From a virus: a stretch of DNA of 31,469 bases. The position numbers were made by a program, and so were the translations under genes. Below are positions 1 to 27,877 of the stretch, one piece after another. Position 1 is the first letter of the stretch; every line of letters begins with the position of its first letter. The notes under the pieces were generated by a model. That model had not been told where the DNA came from. It did no database searches and saw only the letters and a list, made by a program, of their open reading frames with translations. Location: positions 1 through 31,469 of the IMG/VR virus record IMGVR_UViG_3300008110_000250, one strand, 5' to 3'.

Positions 1-713
1 TACCCAGAACCTACCCAGAGACTACCTGCCCTGACGTCCAATAAAGCGCTAGGACTACTTGTACCAATCCCCACGCGGCCGGAGCTGTCAATACGGAGGC
101 GTTCGGTTTGAGATCCGGCAACAGCATCACCTGTATAGAAGTAATGACCACCAAGGTTGCTAGTTCCCTGTGAAAAGTAACCTAAGCCGCCGGCCCCGGC
201 AGCATTTGTTGCCCCATTCCAACGGGCAATACCAACGTTAAATGCTGTTGAACCACCATCACCTAAGATTACGTTTCCTTGGGATTGAGATGAATTACTG
301 ACTTTAATAGAATCAAGAACTTGTAGATTTGCCTGAGGTGCACTCGTCCCAATCCCCACGTTGCCGGAGCTGTTTACAAACAACCGCCCTGTGCCACCTG
401 TGCTGATGGCCAGCTGGTCTGCGCCGGGGGAATAAAAACCTGTATATGAGTCTGCAATAAAACTGATTGACGGGTTTGTTGCCGTACCAGAGGCAAACAC
501 GCCCGAAGTAATAGTGCAGGTACCACCGCTAAACGTGGTGACGTTACCGCTTGTAAAACTTGCGGTTGTTCCGGTGAATGTGGTACCTGAAATAGTTCCA
601 GTAACAGTTAAATTACCGGAGGTAGACGCAAACAACCCAGAAACGGTAATGCTTTTATCGACGCCCGCGTTGGTAAAGGTAATGGTATCAACCCGAATTT
701 CACCGTATGGCAT
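1..713 (-). CDS. Tail-fibre-like protein, C-terminus beyond window
   Basis: Minus-strand frame open from an ATG at 713 to the window edge, so only the N-terminal ~237 residues are seen. It begins MPYGEIRVDTITF, followed by a Gly/Ser/Thr-rich beta-type region (SGTTFTGTTASF style) like that of the upstream fibre gene. It then carries two copies of an LF/LR-x-SSG-N/R-VGIGTS block (codons near 375-345 and 95-65), a motif common in phage and bacterial fibre or adhesin shafts. The two copies are also near-identical in DNA (ccaatccccacg...ccggagctgt). It lies 48 nt downstream of the other fibre gene and is probably co-transcribed. Role inferred: distal tail fibre or host-recognition structural protein. 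The fibre-type character is fairly sure; the exact structure is not. Confidence 0.75.
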   Translation of the reverse strand, partial: MPYGEIRVDTITFTNAGVDKSITVSGLFASTSGNLTVTGTISGTTFTGTTASFTSGNVTTFSGGTCTITSGVFASGTATNPSISFIADSYTGFYSPGADQLAISTGGTGRLFVNSSGNVGIGTSAPQANLQVLDSIKVSNSSQSQGNVILGDGGSTAFNVGIARWNGATNAAGAGGLGYFSQGTSNLGGHYFYTGDAVAGSQTERLRIDSSGRVGIGTSSPSALLDVRAGSLWVGSG

Positions 714-6083: not shown

Positions 6084-6425
6084 ATGCACGGCGCGGCGGG
6101 ATTTTTAGATAGTTTTGTTCAAGATGAACTGAATTGTCGTTGTCTTAGTGAAGAAGATTTTGGCGCACCTCTCGCCAACGAAGAAAATGATGTACCCTTA
6201 ATGGATATGTACAACAGAGGGTTAACCCTATGTCAGGACGGAAGGGAACGGACAAACTTGGCTCTCGAGGGGGGACGGCCTGGAGCAACGGGATATATAC
6301 CGACAATGGAGCAAGGAGTGATGATGGGAGCATCACCGAAACCCAAGGCGTTAGTACTGGATCTGGGGGCACCGAACGAGGAACTGATGGAACAGTCTCG
6401 TCTTCGCCGTGGTTTGCGCCGATAA
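6084..6425 (+). CDS. Hypothetical protein overlapping the DUF3310 gene
   Basis: 113 residues from the ATG at 6084, no family recognised. The first half looks protein-like (FLDSFVQDELNCRCLSEEDFGAP, VPLMDMYNRGLTL). The second half, with KPKALVLDLGAPNEELMEQSRLRRGLRR at the end, also looks selected. Its last 196 nt are shared in another frame with the DUF3310 gene. At 6269-6275 the zero frame reads G GGG GGA, a possible -1 slippery heptamer that would move ribosomes exactly into the DUF3310 frame. No strong SD precedes the start. It could be an independent gene or the N-terminal part of a frameshift fusion. Confidence 0.5.
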   Translation: MHGAAGFLDSFVQDELNCRCLSEEDFGAPLANEENDVPLMDMYNRGLTLCQDGRERTNLALEGGRPGATGYIPTMEQGVMMGASPKPKALVLDLGAPNEELMEQSRLRRGLRR

Positions 6426-6724
6426 TCAGCGACTTGACTGAGTGCAAGGATGGTGTCTGCCCAGTGCCCTGGGCCACCAAAGAAACTGCTCCTGTGGTCC
6501 AGGAGGATTTGGTAAACCATCCGTCTCACTACGCAGATTCCGCTATTGAATGCATCGATGCCATTGAAGCGCAATTAACCGCAGAGGAGTTTCAAGGTTA
6601 CCTTCGAGGTTGTTGCATTAAATATCAATGGCGCTGGCGAAACAAGGGCGGTGTGCAAGACCTTGAAAAATGTCGCTGGTACTTGGACCGGCTAATCACC
6701 GTCAACGAAACTCAGAACGGCTGA
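6230..6724 (+). CDS. DUF3310 family protein
   Basis: 164 residues. The C-terminal half is a clear DUF3310 (PF11753) domain, a small phage family often annotated as nucleotide-kinase-like: VNHPSHY at 95-101, IECIDAIE at 106-113, and GCCIKYQWR with RNKGG at 127-141, then a terminal helix. The function of the family is unproven. The ATG at 6230 has AGAGGG eight nt upstream. Residues 1-65 are low-complexity Gly/Ser/Thr/Asp and coincide with the region also read in the 6084 frame, so the true N-terminus may be shorter (for example TTG near 6433) or arise by frameshifting. The gene converges with the NblA-like gene, overlapping its 3' end by 13 nt. Confidence 0.8.
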   Translation: MSGRKGTDKLGSRGGTAWSNGIYTDNGARSDDGSITETQGVSTGSGGTERGTDGTVSSSPWFAPIISDLTECKDGVCPVPWATKETAPVVQEDLVNHPSHYADSAIECIDAIEAQLTAEEFQGYLRGCCIKYQWRWRNKGGVQDLEKCRWYLDRLITVNETQNG

Positions 6725-7005
6725 AGGTCGTCGCCTTCTTCGTCATCCTCGTCGTCGTATATACATGCGGCGGCGAGTTCTGCTAGCTCTAGATCAGTGG
6801 GAATGTCGAAGTCAATCTCAATATTTTCAGACGCCATGATCTCTTTTACTGCATACCACTCCATCAGGCGTTGATGGTAGAGGTTCAACAGAGCTGCGTA
6901 GAGGTCGTCCCAGGTCATTTCTTGGGCCGCAAGCTCAGCTTTGCGCATCGAGAATTGAAGCTCTAGAGGAAGTTCAAATTCCCGTGGCTCTACTGAACGC
7001 TCCAT
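6712..7005 (-). CDS. nblA: NblA-like phycobilisome degradation protein
   Basis: 97 residues from the ATG at 7005 (a GTG at 7017 is the alternative). Residues 10-57 align without gaps, from memory, to cyanobacterial NblA: F10-x-L12-x-L14-E15-x-Q17-F18, K22, M30-(T/S)-x-(D/E)-D-L35, L39-L40, Q45, then a second helix to about 57. This is the two-helix NblA fold that binds phycobiliproteins and hands them to the Clp protease, dismantling the light-harvesting antenna. Unlike normal ~60-residue NblA it has a ~40-residue extension ending in an acidic run at 84-93 (DDEDDEEGDD). It lies just downstream of the lysozyme on the late strand. nblA genes are known in freshwater cyanophages such as Ma-LMM01. 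A look-alike short helical hairpin cannot be excluded without a profile search. Confidence 0.7.
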   Translation of the reverse strand: MERSVEPREFELPLELQFSMRKAELAAQEMTWDDLYAALLNLYHQRLMEWYAVKEIMASENIEIDFDIPTDLELAELAAACIYDDEDDEEGDDLQPF

Positions 7006-7041: not shown

Positions 7042-7716
7042 CTACCTGTCAAAGACAGTGTTGAAATCATCGGGGTCGTACTCGTCAGCGCGGAATGTGT
7101 CCCAGGGTTTTTCGCTGACCCTAAACTCATTTGCAAAGCGGGACAATACATAAGGATTCAAGCTCTCTTCCAGGTGCTTAATAGCTTGTATTTCATGCTG
7201 AGCCCCAGAGTAAACCCTGAATGCAGACAACAAAAGACGTGCGCACGGCTGCACAAATGCATCGGCATCTTTTAACAGAAGGTTTGTTTCTTCACGGCGC
7301 CGATCAAGAAGGCTTCCAATGACTTGATGGTCCACATCAAAAACCCACCTTGTCATTTCTTCAGTTACTTCTTGCAGGTCTTCATGTTCCAAGTTATCGA
7401 CAATGCTGCTGTAGAAAAAGGAGTCCCATCCCACAGAATGAATAAAAGAAATCAACGCCTGCCTAGCAGAATCACTAATGCCAATGTTGAGTTTTGATAA
7501 CTGAGTATCGATTACGTCTACTTCGTGAAACAAATATTCAAGCGCCTTCTCTTTACTGCATCGATGGCCGCGTTTTACAGGTGAGCCATCAGGATAAAAC
7601 TGTGTTCCATATCCAATGGTGTAAGGTTCTCCACCTGTACTTGGATCAGCGTAAGCTTTCTCGTTAAAGCCCTCATGCTTGCAAATTAAATTAATTGCAG
7701 ATGTGTGATCAGTCAT
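7042..7716 (-). CDS. T4-type lysozyme (GH24 muramidase)
   Basis: 224 residues from the ATG at 7716; a longer form from a GTG at 7773 is possible but adds no recognisable sequence. The GH24 signature is at residues 11-38: catalytic E15 in ICKHEGF, D24 nine residues later in AYADP (the spacing of T4 lysozyme E11/D20), then TIGYGT at 33-38. The central region (LISFIHSVGWDSF, RWVFDVDHQVIGSLLDRRREET) matches the helical lobe that ends the family core near residue 150. The remaining ~70 residues are a tail without an assigned domain. It cleaves peptidoglycan between MurNAc and GlcNAc and is the likely lysis endolysin. There is no signal peptide, so it should need a holin. It is followed 36 nt later by the NblA-like gene. 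Confidence 0.9.
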   Translation of the reverse strand: MTDHTSAINLICKHEGFNEKAYADPSTGGEPYTIGYGTQFYPDGSPVKRGHRCSKEKALEYLFHEVDVIDTQLSKLNIGISDSARQALISFIHSVGWDSFFYSSIVDNLEHEDLQEVTEEMTRWVFDVDHQVIGSLLDRRREETNLLLKDADAFVQPCARLLLSAFRVYSGAQHEIQAIKHLEESLNPYVLSRFANEFRVSEKPWDTFRADEYDPDDFNTVFDR

Positions 7717-7785
7717 GGGGGGTAATGAAGCATTACCCCAATCATACACAATTTTTAAGTGTCCTATTGACACTCGTTCATGACA

Positions 7786-7942: not shown

Positions 7943-8386
7943 TCACTTGTTCTGGCAGTTTACCTGATGCGTGACCCAACGGCAATTGCTTGGGCAATAA
8001 TCGCCATAATTATCGGTGCGGTCCAGCTCCAGGTCTTGTTCTGCTCCGTTTTCTTCCGCCCACTTTTTAAACGCTGGGTAACTTAAAAGCCACTCATCAC
8101 ATACTTGAATGCCTTTGGCAATGTACGTAGGATACTCTTTGCAACGACGACGCATTTTTAACCATCGTCCATATAACCAATGGCCTTTACTGTACTTGTT
8201 TTTGGCATCTCCATGTATTGTATTTGCTTTTTTTGTTGCGTTAATAGTGAAATCAGTACACGCGTGTACATGTTTCCTGGCGCAAGAACGGCAACGGCCT
8301 TGCCATGTTTTCAAAGAATCTTTTCTTTTGTTACAAGGTTTAAAGCAGTCCTTGCACAAAGCCACAATATATTTATTTTTAGCCAT
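7943..8386 (-). CDS. HNH-type homing endonuclease-like protein
   Basis: 147 residues. An N-terminal zinc-ribbon-like region has C11-x2-C14 and C32-x2-C35. It is followed by the layout typical of free-standing phage HNH endonucleases: LYGRWLKMRRRCKE at 71-84, GIQVCDEWL at 92-100, FKKWAEENG, then a LDRTDNYGDYCPSNCRW block at 121-137. Such enzymes nick or cut a related site and spread by homing. It separates two late genes and is one of three HNH genes in the window, all on the late strand. Catalytic activity is likely but not provable here. Confidence 0.8.
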   Translation of the reverse strand: MAKNKYIVALCKDCFKPCNKRKDSLKTWQGRCRSCARKHVHACTDFTINATKKANTIHGDAKNKYSKGHWLYGRWLKMRRRCKEYPTYIAKGIQVCDEWLLSYPAFKKWAEENGAEQDLELDRTDNYGDYCPSNCRWVTHQVNCQNK

Positions 8387-12096: not shown

Positions 12097-12459
12097 TTAA
12101 ACAGCTTCCCTAAACACGGTTAAATCGCAAACAAAAACGTCAAAAGGTTCTTGTTTAATCCAGGCATTAATTCTATCCATCCTAGCTTGAGTAAAGAACT
12201 CTTGTCTTTCAAACCATTCATTCATCTTGGCACTTGCCTTGGATGTATTGCACCTGCGACAGGCTGGAACAAGGTTTGTTCTATTGCTTGAACCTGATTT
12301 AAACCTGGGAATCACATGATCCAATGATGTGGCATCCGCCTCACAATAAGCACATTTGCAGTCCCAGGCATCGTATATAGATTGACGGTAACGTTTCTTA
12401 GCTAGCTTTGGAGTTAATTCAATGAGCAGGGCAAGGGGTTCCTGTTCGCAATTGAACAT
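12097..12459 (-). CDS. HNH endonuclease
   Basis: 120 residues with a compact zinc-type HNH domain: C36-x2-C39 (CAYC), D47-H48 in SLDHVIP, N62 in NRTNLVPAC and C67-x2-C70-N71. This is the classic McrA/5-methylcytosine-type HNH core: the first two Cys and last two Cys hold a structural zinc, and H48 is the expected general base. The N-terminal 30 and C-terminal 40 residues are helical. It could be a homing nuclease or a packaging-associated HNH protein, but it is far from the terminase, so homing is more likely. An AAAAGAG lies just upstream of the ATG, and it is divergent from the HTH gene at 12595. Confidence 0.88.
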   Translation of the reverse strand: MFNCEQEPLALLIELTPKLAKKRYRQSIYDAWDCKCAYCEADATSLDHVIPRFKSGSSNRTNLVPACRRCNTSKASAKMNEWFERQEFFTQARMDRINAWIKQEPFDVFVCDLTVFREAV

Positions 12460-17806: not shown

Positions 17807-18322
17807 TTAATTCGATTCTAAATCAAGACACGCAAACTCTTTGTAAAAAAGCTTTTGTGCATCTAAGGCAGCTTTTTTGGCGTCATCTTCATTCTCAAAG
17901 TTACCTACAGTAATGCGCGTTCCGTCTAAAGTGACGCGAACACGATAAAGCCCATTATCTTTTCTCTTGCTGTAACCTACAAAAATCTTGTTGTAGTTAT
18001 TTTCTGCTTCACTTGCCAACCTTAAGTTTTCCCAGCGATTGTCTTGCGCGTTTCTATTTTTGTGCTCAACCAACATGGAACCAGGATCCGCTCCCGTCAT
18101 TAGTAGCCAAGCAATCCTGCTAATGTAATAGCTTTTTCCTTTATGTTTTACTGTCCATGTTTTACGTCTTACTGGCCCACCAAGAGAGCCGATTGGCTTG
18201 CCAAGTTTTTCTCTGTCCGCATTGCAACGCGACTTTATTAAAAACAACTCACCTGTTTCTGGTATGTATTTGTAATATTCTTTTAACTCTTCAACAGCAG
18301 GCAGGGGGCAAGGGGCCACCAT
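17807..18322 (-). CDS. HNH-AP2 homing endonuclease
   Basis: 171 residues. The N-terminal part (ELKEYYKYIPETGELFLIKSR, then ISRIAWLLMTG at 67-77) leads to an HNH_3-type core: H86 in LVEHKNRNAQDNRWENLRL, with N95 and N99, then a SEAENNYNK segment. The C-terminal ~45 residues (GLYRVRVTLDGTRITVGNFENEDDAKKAALDA) form an AP2-type DNA-binding domain. HNH plus AP2 is the standard layout of free-standing homing endonucleases in phages and cyanobacteria. It lies between two structural-type genes. An inverted repeat sits directly upstream of its start (18333-18358). Confidence 0.9.
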   Translation of the reverse strand: MVAPCPLPAVEELKEYYKYIPETGELFLIKSRCNADREKLGKPIGSLGGPVRRKTWTVKHKGKSYYISRIAWLLMTGADPGSMLVEHKNRNAQDNRWENLRLASEAENNYNKIFVGYSKRKDNGLYRVRVTLDGTRITVGNFENEDDAKKAALDAQKLFYKEFACLDLESN

Positions 18323-25847: not shown

Positions 25848-26030
25848 TCAATCCTCCAGTACTTCGTAACCAGCTATTTCATTCAGTCTACTCAATACAA
25901 TTCCATCCCCTTTTAAATTCCATTCAAGAATATCACCTTCCTGCCAGCCAAGCTCTTCAGTTATTTCTTCGGGAAGAGTGATGAATTGATCACCGAATTC
26001 ATCTTCTTGGACCTCAATAATGTAGCTCAT
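25848..26030 (-). CDS. AbrB/SpoVT-like swapped-hairpin protein
   Basis: 60 residues: MSYIIEVQEDEFGDQFITLP, EEITEELGWQEGDILEWNLK, then a DGIVLSRLN strand. The pattern of a beta strand, G/D-x-x-(I/L)TLP, E-L-G-W-x-E-GD-x-(L/I), and a final strand is that of the AbrB/SpoVT/MazE swapped-hairpin fold. Such proteins are DNA-binding transition regulators or antitoxins. No toxin gene sits beside it. It overlaps the membrane coiled-coil gene by 4 nt (ATGA) and abuts the next gene. It is acidic, which is unusual for direct DNA binding, so it may bind another protein instead. Confidence 0.75.
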   Translation of the reverse strand: MSYIIEVQEDEFGDQFITLPEEITEELGWQEGDILEWNLKGDGIVLSRLNEIAGYEVLED

Positions 26031-26350: not shown

Positions 26351-27877
26351 TTAGTAATCAAATTGCAAATTGCTCTTTTTGGCTAGACCGTTAACCAACC
26401 AGACCAGTGAATCGACGCAATCATCGTGCCCACTTACACCAAAGTTGGTAAGCTCTTCAAACATAGTGTCAAAATTACGGTACTTGTTGAAGATAATCTT
26501 ACGGTCTTCAAACAGGCCCATGATGCCACGGAAACGAGCCAGTTTATCCGCACGAAATCCTTTGACCGGGTGCCAGATCAAGTTAAAAAGACCATCGCCA
26601 TTCAGGCAGACACGCTTGAAGTCAGCCTCTAAAGATGCCTGGTACTGCACGGCTTCAGACCATACATCACATGTTGAGTATGTTGGGAAGTAGTTGCCCT
26701 GTTCATCGCGGCCAACAATGCACCAGTCATTGAGAAGTTCTTTTAGTTCATCCAGTTTTTCCAGGTTGCCCATGACGCGCATGCGCCGATAATCAATAAT
26801 GTGAATACAATCACCAATGCGGCCACCAAGCACAAATACGGTGTAATCATTTTTCTCTTTAGTCCCAGCAGATAGATCAACCCCTACGCCAAGGGCATCA
26901 AACTCAGTTGCGATCTCCGCTTTGACCAACAGCTCTGGAGATAGGGACAGCTCGCTCTGACGAACAATCCTGTTCATGTACTGGAACGAAAAGGCAATAG
27001 GTGCCTGTCGTTTCTTTTCCTTTAAGTAATCCAGTGACCACATCTCCGGCCAATAGGATTCCTCCTCACCTGTTTTGGAATTTGCCTGGATTGCGGAAAG
27101 AACAATTTGAGTCCAGTTGTTTTGTTCGTTAAATGTAGTGGCATGAATGTCATCATGTCGGAAGCGAGTACCAAGGCAGATCGCCCGTCCACCCTCAAAC
27201 ATCGTGGGAGCAATAACGGCATTCCAGTTATCCTCCATCATCTTCCTGATGTCAGGGTTGGAGATATCTGCTGCACTCTTGGTAGGGTCATCAATACAGA
27301 TGAGGTGACTACGCTTGGAGGTCACCGAACCTTTCAGGCCTGCTGCGCACAAAGTAAATTGTTCATCACCGGTAACATCAATGCCGGCAAATTTGTGATC
27401 AATAGACCAGTACTCATTGCTGGTTACGTTCTTGAGAAGTTTGACTGTTGGAAAAACTTCTTGATAGCGTTTGCTATCAATGATTCGTTTGATGGTTGCA
27501 GACTTAGAGCGTGCGATATCAACTGTGTAGGAAAGATAAAGAATCTGTAGAGGCTTCTTGGCTGTCGTGTGCACACCAATTGCCCATGCAGTAAACAAGC
27601 CCAGGACTGTACTCTTGGCACTACCCCTAGGGGCAAGTAAATCAATGTTGGGGCCAGCAATGCCGACCAAACAGCTACTATCTTGACCCGTAACAAAGTG
27701 ACGATGCCACTGTTTGTGGTGAGGGGCTGGAGCTTTATCTGCTACGTAGTCACAGAAGAACCCAAAATCTTCACGGGCTCTTTGTAATAGTTCTTCGTTC
27801 TTATGCTTACGTACCTTGTGATTCTTAACTGCAGCTTGAGCGTTACGTCGATAAGCTAAGTGAAGATGAGAAGGCAC
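26351..27877 (-). CDS. terL: Terminase large subunit
   Basis: 508 residues. ATPase domain: Walker A APRGSAKST at 82-90, adenine/stack region QILYLSYTVDIARSKSA, Walker B LICIDDP at 192-198, then GTRFRHDDIHATTF (coupling motif region). Nuclease domain: GVGVDLSAGTKEKNDYTVF near 345-363 supplies the first acidic residue (RNase H-like fold), and GHDDCVDSLVWL near 483-494 the last. It drives ATP-powered packaging of DNA into the prohead through the portal and cuts the concatemer. The start is GTG at 27877, the first possible start after an in-frame stop; no SD is visible, and an inverted repeat lies just upstream. The portal lies five genes downstream. Confidence 0.95.
   Translation of the reverse strand: MPSHLHLAYRRNAQAAVKNHKVRKHKNEELLQRAREDFGFFCDYVADKAPAPHHKQWHRHFVTGQDSSCLVGIAGPNIDLLAPRGSAKSTVLGLFTAWAIGVHTTAKKPLQILYLSYTVDIARSKSATIKRIIDSKRYQEVFPTVKLLKNVTSNEYWSIDHKFAGIDVTGDEQFTLCAAGLKGSVTSKRSHLICIDDPTKSAADISNPDIRKMMEDNWNAVIAPTMFEGGRAICLGTRFRHDDIHATTFNEQNNWTQIVLSAIQANSKTGEEESYWPEMWSLDYLKEKKRQAPIAFSFQYMNRIVRQSELSLSPELLVKAEIATEFDALGVGVDLSAGTKEKNDYTVFVLGGRIGDCIHIIDYRRMRVMGNLEKLDELKELLNDWCIVGRDEQGNYFPTYSTCDVWSEAVQYQASLEADFKRVCLNGDGLFNLIWHPVKGFRADKLARFRGIMGLFEDRKIIFNKYRNFDTMFEELTNFGVSGHDDCVDSLVWLVNGLAKKSNLQFDY

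Follow-up and report, generated by a model that had tools for sequence, protein, structure and literature searches.

An extended NblA-like protein encoded beside the lysozyme gene in phages of the S-EIV1 lineage

Gene, neighborhood and phage lineage

We analyzed a window of 31,469 nucleotides (positions 1 to 31,469 of IMG/VR virus record IMGVR_UViG_3300008110_000250). Its minus strand encodes a small NblA-like protein between a phage lysozyme gene and a convergent DUF3310 gene (Table 1). The product of the minus-strand open reading frame running from 7005 to 6712 is MERSVEPREFELPLELQFSMRKAELAAQEMTWDDLYAALLNLYHQRLMEWYAVKEIMASENIEIDFDIPTDLELAELAAACIYDDEDDEEGDDLQPF (97 residues). Relatives share the ATG at 7005 as start codon but not the GTG lying 12 bases ahead of it, and their sequence upstream of the ATG is variable. 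Relatives number more than 500 in viral contigs: one IMG/VR scan found the gene encoded in 514 of 556 pattern matches, and two further scans returned at least 578 and at least 588 matches. Family members are about 94–106 residues long, not the ~60 of NblA. The open reading frame is real and under purifying selection, with a strong bias of substitutions toward synonymous positions (pN/pS ~0.09–0.25 across residues 1–66, closest relatives left out).

Table 1. Features of the NblA-like gene and its immediate neighbors in the window.
Feature	Position	Strand	Basis
NblA-like coding sequence, 97 residues, with C-terminal extension	6712..7005	−	Open reading frame with conserved ATG; relatives; pN/pS
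NblA-homologous core, residues 10–57, predicted helices 14–28 and 32–59	6835..6978	−	PF04485, hhalign, 1ojh, AlphaFold2
F-E-L-P-L-E-L-Q-F-S-M-R, residues 10–21	6943..6978	−	Equivalent of NblA E-L-S-L-E-Q-Q-F-S-I-R; highest between-family conservation
Linker and third helix, residues 60–80, E-N-I-E-I-D-F-D-I-P-T-D-L-E-L-A-E-L	6766..6828	−	Invariant residues; predicted helix 71–83
Disordered acidic tail, residues 84–97, ending L-Q-P-F (tip 6715–6726)	6715..6756	−	pLDDT; P-F count
Phage lysozyme gene, directly upstream	7042..7773	−	PF00959, E=3e-19
DUF3310 gene, convergent	6230..6724	+	PF11753, E=5e-18; 13-base overlap with the 3' end of the NblA-like gene

The lysozyme gene lies 36 bases away on the same strand and directly precedes the NblA-like gene in 174 of 175 testable loci, which bears out the neighbor named in an earlier sequence-only reading of the window. 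DUF3310 converges on the NblA-like gene in 169 of 178 testable loci; in both counts many loci are near-identical and not independent. The overlap of these two genes varies between clades: it spans 13 bases, with TGA as the stop, in one group and 4 in another, and a third group has the genes ~320–770 bases apart, with tails that in a few cases are otherwise similar. Between the lysozyme and NblA-like genes, a promoter scan found no promoter-like site, with counts near the shuffle mean. The gene order fits co-transcription with lysozyme, and the timing with lysis suggested from that order is unproven.

TerL of the window is 82% identical over its full length to that of Synechococcus phage S-EIV1 and about 25% or less to those of other phages. 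The order lysozyme, NblA-like gene, DUF3310, dCTP deaminase is also common to the window and S-EIV1. These similarities place the window in the S-EIV1 lineage, which infects Synechococcus, and bear out the cyanobacterial host that had been proposed.

Several other features of the window and its lineage emerged. The S-EIV1 terminase gene (KJ410740 54080–56620; 14080–16620 in our locus L324) encodes an insertion of ~334 residues that bears intein hallmarks: it begins CLVGDT, contains TPEHPF and ends HNFIANGFNVLN before C; the window terminase (26351–27877, minus strand) is intein-free at that site. Downstream of the terminase and between structural genes, 25848–26030 (minus strand) encodes a 60-residue protein whose MazE/AbrB-type domain (PF04014) scored above the cut-off, and no toxin gene was recognized beside it. 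Two HNH endonuclease genes (12097–12459 and 17807–18322, minus strand; PF01844 and PF13392), probably homing, lie among structural genes; a third small open reading frame (7943–8386, minus strand) resembles HNH genes and has no family match. Very repetitive proteins, with units like FTSVTGVSGVFTTxLSGATITG, are encoded at 761–2737 and 3–713 (minus strand) and are probably fibre or adsorption proteins; the 658-residue repetitive protein had no Pfam or PHROGs match. Scans of the window for tRNA and Rfam families gave no match.

Homology to NblA

In the host, the small protein NblA tags the light-harvesting antenna for breakdown. Residues ~10–57 had been aligned with NblA without gaps in the sequence-only reading, and PF04485, PDB entry 1ojh and hhalign all reproduced this register. 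In the family-level comparison, hhalign aligned residues 7–59 with NblA over 53 columns with no gaps, at 30% identity and a probability of 96.4%, its E-value referring to a single comparison. Each of 27 diverse aligned family members, taken alone, matched PF04485 (27/27; best E 6e-6). In the reciprocal direction, we ran the family's own profile on 386 cyanobacterial genomes, where all 38 checkable places, namely those in genomes also scanned with PF04485, were nblA loci, the overlap being judged by coordinates from two tables compared by eye. Among PDB sequences, the family profile matched NblA 1ojh best (E=8.8e-4), and NblA 3cs5 was also among the matches (E=0.62). AlphaFold2 predicted helices at residues 14–28 and 32–59 (pLDDT 84–93 per block), corresponding to the helix-loop-helix layout of NblA, then a third helix at 71–83 and a disordered end.

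A PF04485 hit and an NblA-like fold had been put forward as checks on the assignment, and these gave a divided result. The single 97-residue sequence scored 18.7 bits against PF04485 (cut-off 25), with residues 11–57 on profile positions 1–47 (47 of 50 positions), and one sibling scored 25.6 bits in a genome search and 24.7 as a single protein. The single sequence had no match in NCBIfam or PHROGs. Foldseek, run with two models of this small open hairpin against PDB and BFVD without a positive control, returned no NblA and nothing at E < 0.001, an outcome that, with no such control, weighs little in either direction. A tblastn search of phages with Nostoc NblA recovered no known phage NblA, not even that of Ma-LMM01, and a single-sequence search is therefore too weak here. 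We accept homology despite the 18.7 bits and the empty Foldseek search because the reciprocal profile searches are the stronger tests. On this evidence, homology between the phage family and NblA is very probable. The protein is best described as a divergent member of the NblA superfamily rather than a canonical NblA; we file it there, and do not place it outside, because some short cyanobacterial PF04485 proteins also lack the K-H-x-W-G-L motif. As candidate identities, Pfam DUF4030 and PHF12_MRG_bd were set aside as weak and irregularly matched by family members, as were PDB matches to HRD1, whose alignments cover the acidic stretch.

A retained N-terminal region and a missing C-terminal motif

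Similarity to NblA is unevenly distributed along the protein. Mean BLOSUM62 scores against 27 NblAs are 2.18 for residues 10–24, 1.14 for residues 25–44, 0.70 for residues 45–58 and −1.83 for residues 59–63. Within the best-conserved stretch, L12, L14, E15, Q17, F18, R21 and E24 agree with the NblA consensus. The N-terminal region of NblA has been reported to bind ClpC (PMC4103541). At the other end, the phycobiliprotein-binding L-x-K-H-x-W-G-L of NblA is absent, and A58, S/D59, E60, N61 and I62 align there, which in family numbering amounts to K to A at 58, W to N at 61 and G to I at 62. The earlier suggestion that the protein marks phycobilisomes for Clp proteolysis is thus not fully supported: the region that would contact ClpC is kept, but the motif that would contact the antenna is missing. 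Because some short cyanobacterial PF04485 proteins (paralogues L168 and L277) likewise lack K-H-Q-W-G-L, the loss of the motif does not exclude antenna activity.

A conserved extension with an SSB-like tip

In the place of NblA K-H-Q-W-G-L, residues 60–80 form a linker and predicted third helix that are not part of NblA (consensus I-x-F-D-I-P-T-D-L-E-L-x-E-L). E60, D67, P69, T70, E73, E76 and L77 are invariant in 27 diverse members, down to ~51% identity, and this pattern shows that the extension is itself a conserved element. The sequence-only reading had described ~40 additional residues, foreign to normal NblA and ending in an acidic run. They are indeed absent there, but the acidic run accounts for only the last ~14, after the conserved linker and third helix, and is itself followed by a conserved C-terminal P-F, which that reading passed over.

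The tail is predicted to be disordered, with pLDDT < 50 for residues 88–97. P-F forms the C-terminal end of 70 of 78 distinct family members. The exceptions are clade iii (L312–L322), which keeps the core, third helix and acidity and ends ..CFL, ..FAV and similar, and one intermediate (L383). Overlap with the DUF3310 gene as the full cause of the P-F end is ruled out by loci with a 4-base overlap, where P-F is kept with varied Pro and Phe codons, and by the tail types with the DUF3310 gene more than 300 bp away, which retain P-F in 10 of 10 cases. The Q preceding P in the 13-base-overlap group may be partly constrained by the overlap. Since P-F persists, with varied codons, whether the two genes overlap slightly or are separated by over 300 bases, the tip is probably selected at the protein level.

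The same kind of ending is found in SSB. Both proteins carry a disordered acidic tail with P-F at the carboxyl terminus, but the NblA-like protein has no OB fold, its tip sits on an NblA-type core, and the residue before P is usually Q, L, S, A or T, whereas in SSB it is I or V. The SSB of this lineage ends acidic-x-P-F in 15 of 16 relatives (L325–L333, L335–L340), as in ..DMTDEPF of S-EIV1 and ..DLEEVPF, ..LDEIPF and ..ELEELPF of its relatives; SSBs in small cyanobacterial genomes end ..EDEIPF, ..EEEIPF and ..DDIPF. Otherwise P-F ends are rare. In S-EIV1 they occur in 2 of 111 coding sequences examined, the SSB and the NblA-like protein, and in the background in 2 of 293 distinct long open reading frames of viral loci, one of them an SSB. 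SSBs of clade iii, whose NblA-like proteins lack P-F, end ..DDNEHF, or ..RCFQLF in a readthrough form. Co-variation of the two tips in this clade is only suggestive, because another SSB of clade iii type ends ..DDDNQPF. The clade iii SSB of L334/L421 apparently lacks the stop after ..DDNEHF that is present in L422. The SSB tip DDDIPF is a known partner-docking motif (PMC5872125), and by likeness the NblA-like tip may bind SSB partners.

Candidate functions

We consider the best explanation to be a ClpC adaptor of the NblA family whose most likely target is the phycobilisome, with our confidence in antenna breakdown as its function evenly divided. The explanation builds on homology, conservation, synteny, the loss of K-H-x-W-G-L and the conserved tail tip. 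From these we infer that the protein, which is found throughout the S-EIV1 lineage, most likely works as a proteolysis adaptor late in the infection. Its helix-loop-helix core, presumably dimeric, would use its conserved N-terminal region to dock on ClpC of the host and deliver cargo to ClpCP. The likeliest cargo would be the phycobilisome; dismantling it would free amino acids and reduce the light absorbed. The third helix and the acidic, SSB-like-tipped tail stand in place of the antenna-gripping end of NblA and would probably alter how cargo is held, or which cargo.

In favor of antenna breakdown, the putative ClpC-binding region is the best-conserved part between NblA and the phage family, the hosts of the lineage are Synechococcus, and phycobilisomes are lost in response to other cyanophage NblAs (PMC9602691). 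Against it count the disappearance of the phycobiliprotein-binding motif, although Ma-LMM01 NblA retains it, and an extension and tip that have no counterpart in NblA. The single sequence also falls below the Pfam cut-off, and NCBIfam, PHROGs and Foldseek (the last without a positive control) are empty.

The tail invites a different, though unlikely, interpretation in which the core binds ClpC and the acidic P-F tail mimics the SSB tip and selects the cargo. The captured proteins would be SSB-binding proteins of host or phage, such as repair nucleases, helicases, primase or polymerase, and would either be degraded or serve to place ClpCP at the replication site. Such retargeting would account for a P-F end that survives varying tail sequence and synonymous codons (70/78, including 10 tail types without gene overlap), for its match to the acidic-x-P-F ends of the phage's own SSB (15/16) and of cyanobacterial SSBs, and for its rarity otherwise (2/111 S-EIV1 coding sequences; 2/293 long open reading frames, one being SSB). 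The lost antenna-binding motif and the partner-docking role of DDDIPF (PMC5872125) point the same way. However, a short match in an acidic stretch could have arisen by convergence for some other reason, P is often preceded by Q, T, S or A where SSB has I or V, clade iii dispenses with P-F yet keeps core, third helix and acidity, and the motif was noticed after the fact. We likewise rate as unlikely the fuller reading in which a phage has turned the antenna-proteolysis adaptor of its host into a modular ClpC adaptor with an SSB-tip-mimicking cargo arm, so that ClpCP would be directed to, or parked at, proteins of DNA replication and repair during infection, in place of phycobilisomes or in addition to them.

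The steep fall in similarity to NblA, from 2.18 in the N-terminal region to −1.83 at residues 59–63, would also suit a decoy that occupies ClpC, blocks host NblA or other adaptors and so protects the antenna or phage proteins from proteolysis. We find this quite improbable: the strong conservation of the third helix and tail goes beyond the needs of a simple decoy, and the cyanobacterial short paralogues without K-H-Q-W-G-L indicate that motif loss is no proof of lost adaptor function. Least probable is a helical hairpin that is not functionally NblA and was co-opted for virion assembly or lysis, which the strict lysozyme synteny (174/175 loci) and the behavior of a core rather than a mobile auxiliary gene would fit, but which is opposed by the specificity of the reciprocal NblA homology, by the sequence itself, which shows no apparent membrane segment or signal peptide, and by the lack of a match to any structural or lysis family.

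Relation to known NblAs and significance

Compared with cyanobacterial NblA (PF04485; Nostoc PCC 7120, PDB 1ojh), the phage family has in common an ungapped helix-loop-helix core over ~50 residues, predicted here, with E-L-x-L-E-x-Q-F-[SA]-[MIL]-R, an M-[ST]-x-[DE] turn, L-x-x-L-Y-x-Q and K at 54. It differs in length (97 versus ~60 residues), in the loss of K-H-x-W-G-L, in the gain of a third helix and an acidic P-F tail, and in P13, A23, L35, A38, N41, H44, R46 and W50, which are conserved in the phage family and not in NblA. The NblA of the freshwater cyanophage Ma-LMM01 (BAF36096, 79 residues) is likewise a phage-borne homologue, but it reaches 51.8 bits on PF04485, retains K-K-N-W-G-L and adjoins nrdA, not lysozyme. 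The NblA-like protein of the marine cyanophage S-SCSM1 (QFG06501, 54 residues), which published profile-based work assigns to NblA, has no PF04485 match here and no extension; the family of this window is clearly closer to NblA. S-EIV1 itself encodes an orthologue, AHV82245.1 (~61–65% identity), annotated as a 'hypothetical protein', with lysozyme upstream and a convergent DUF3310 gene; it differs in being slightly longer and in its tail, ..DDLRKELAPF.

A 2017 survey of photosynthesis genes by cyanophage group lists the S-EIV1 group with hli and ptoX and without nblA (PMC5332604). In the literature searched, which did not extend to the genome paper of S-EIV1 or to the viral NblA papers of 2019 and 2025, we found no statement on an NblA relative in the S-EIV1 group. 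What is new here is an unannotated, extended NblA relative that is present lineage-wide.

Cyanophage NblA is a current topic, and Nadel et al. reportedly addressed viral NblA proteins and oceanic photosynthesis in 2025 (Nature 648:434). S-EIV1-like phages are common in viral metagenomes. Because they are common and the S-EIV1 copy is labeled hypothetical, tallies of antenna-attacking phages may miss this gene. If the protein is active on phycobilisomes, an NblA core would work without the known antenna-binding motif; if it is inactive on them, this would be a rare instance in which a phage has given a host protease adaptor a new target.
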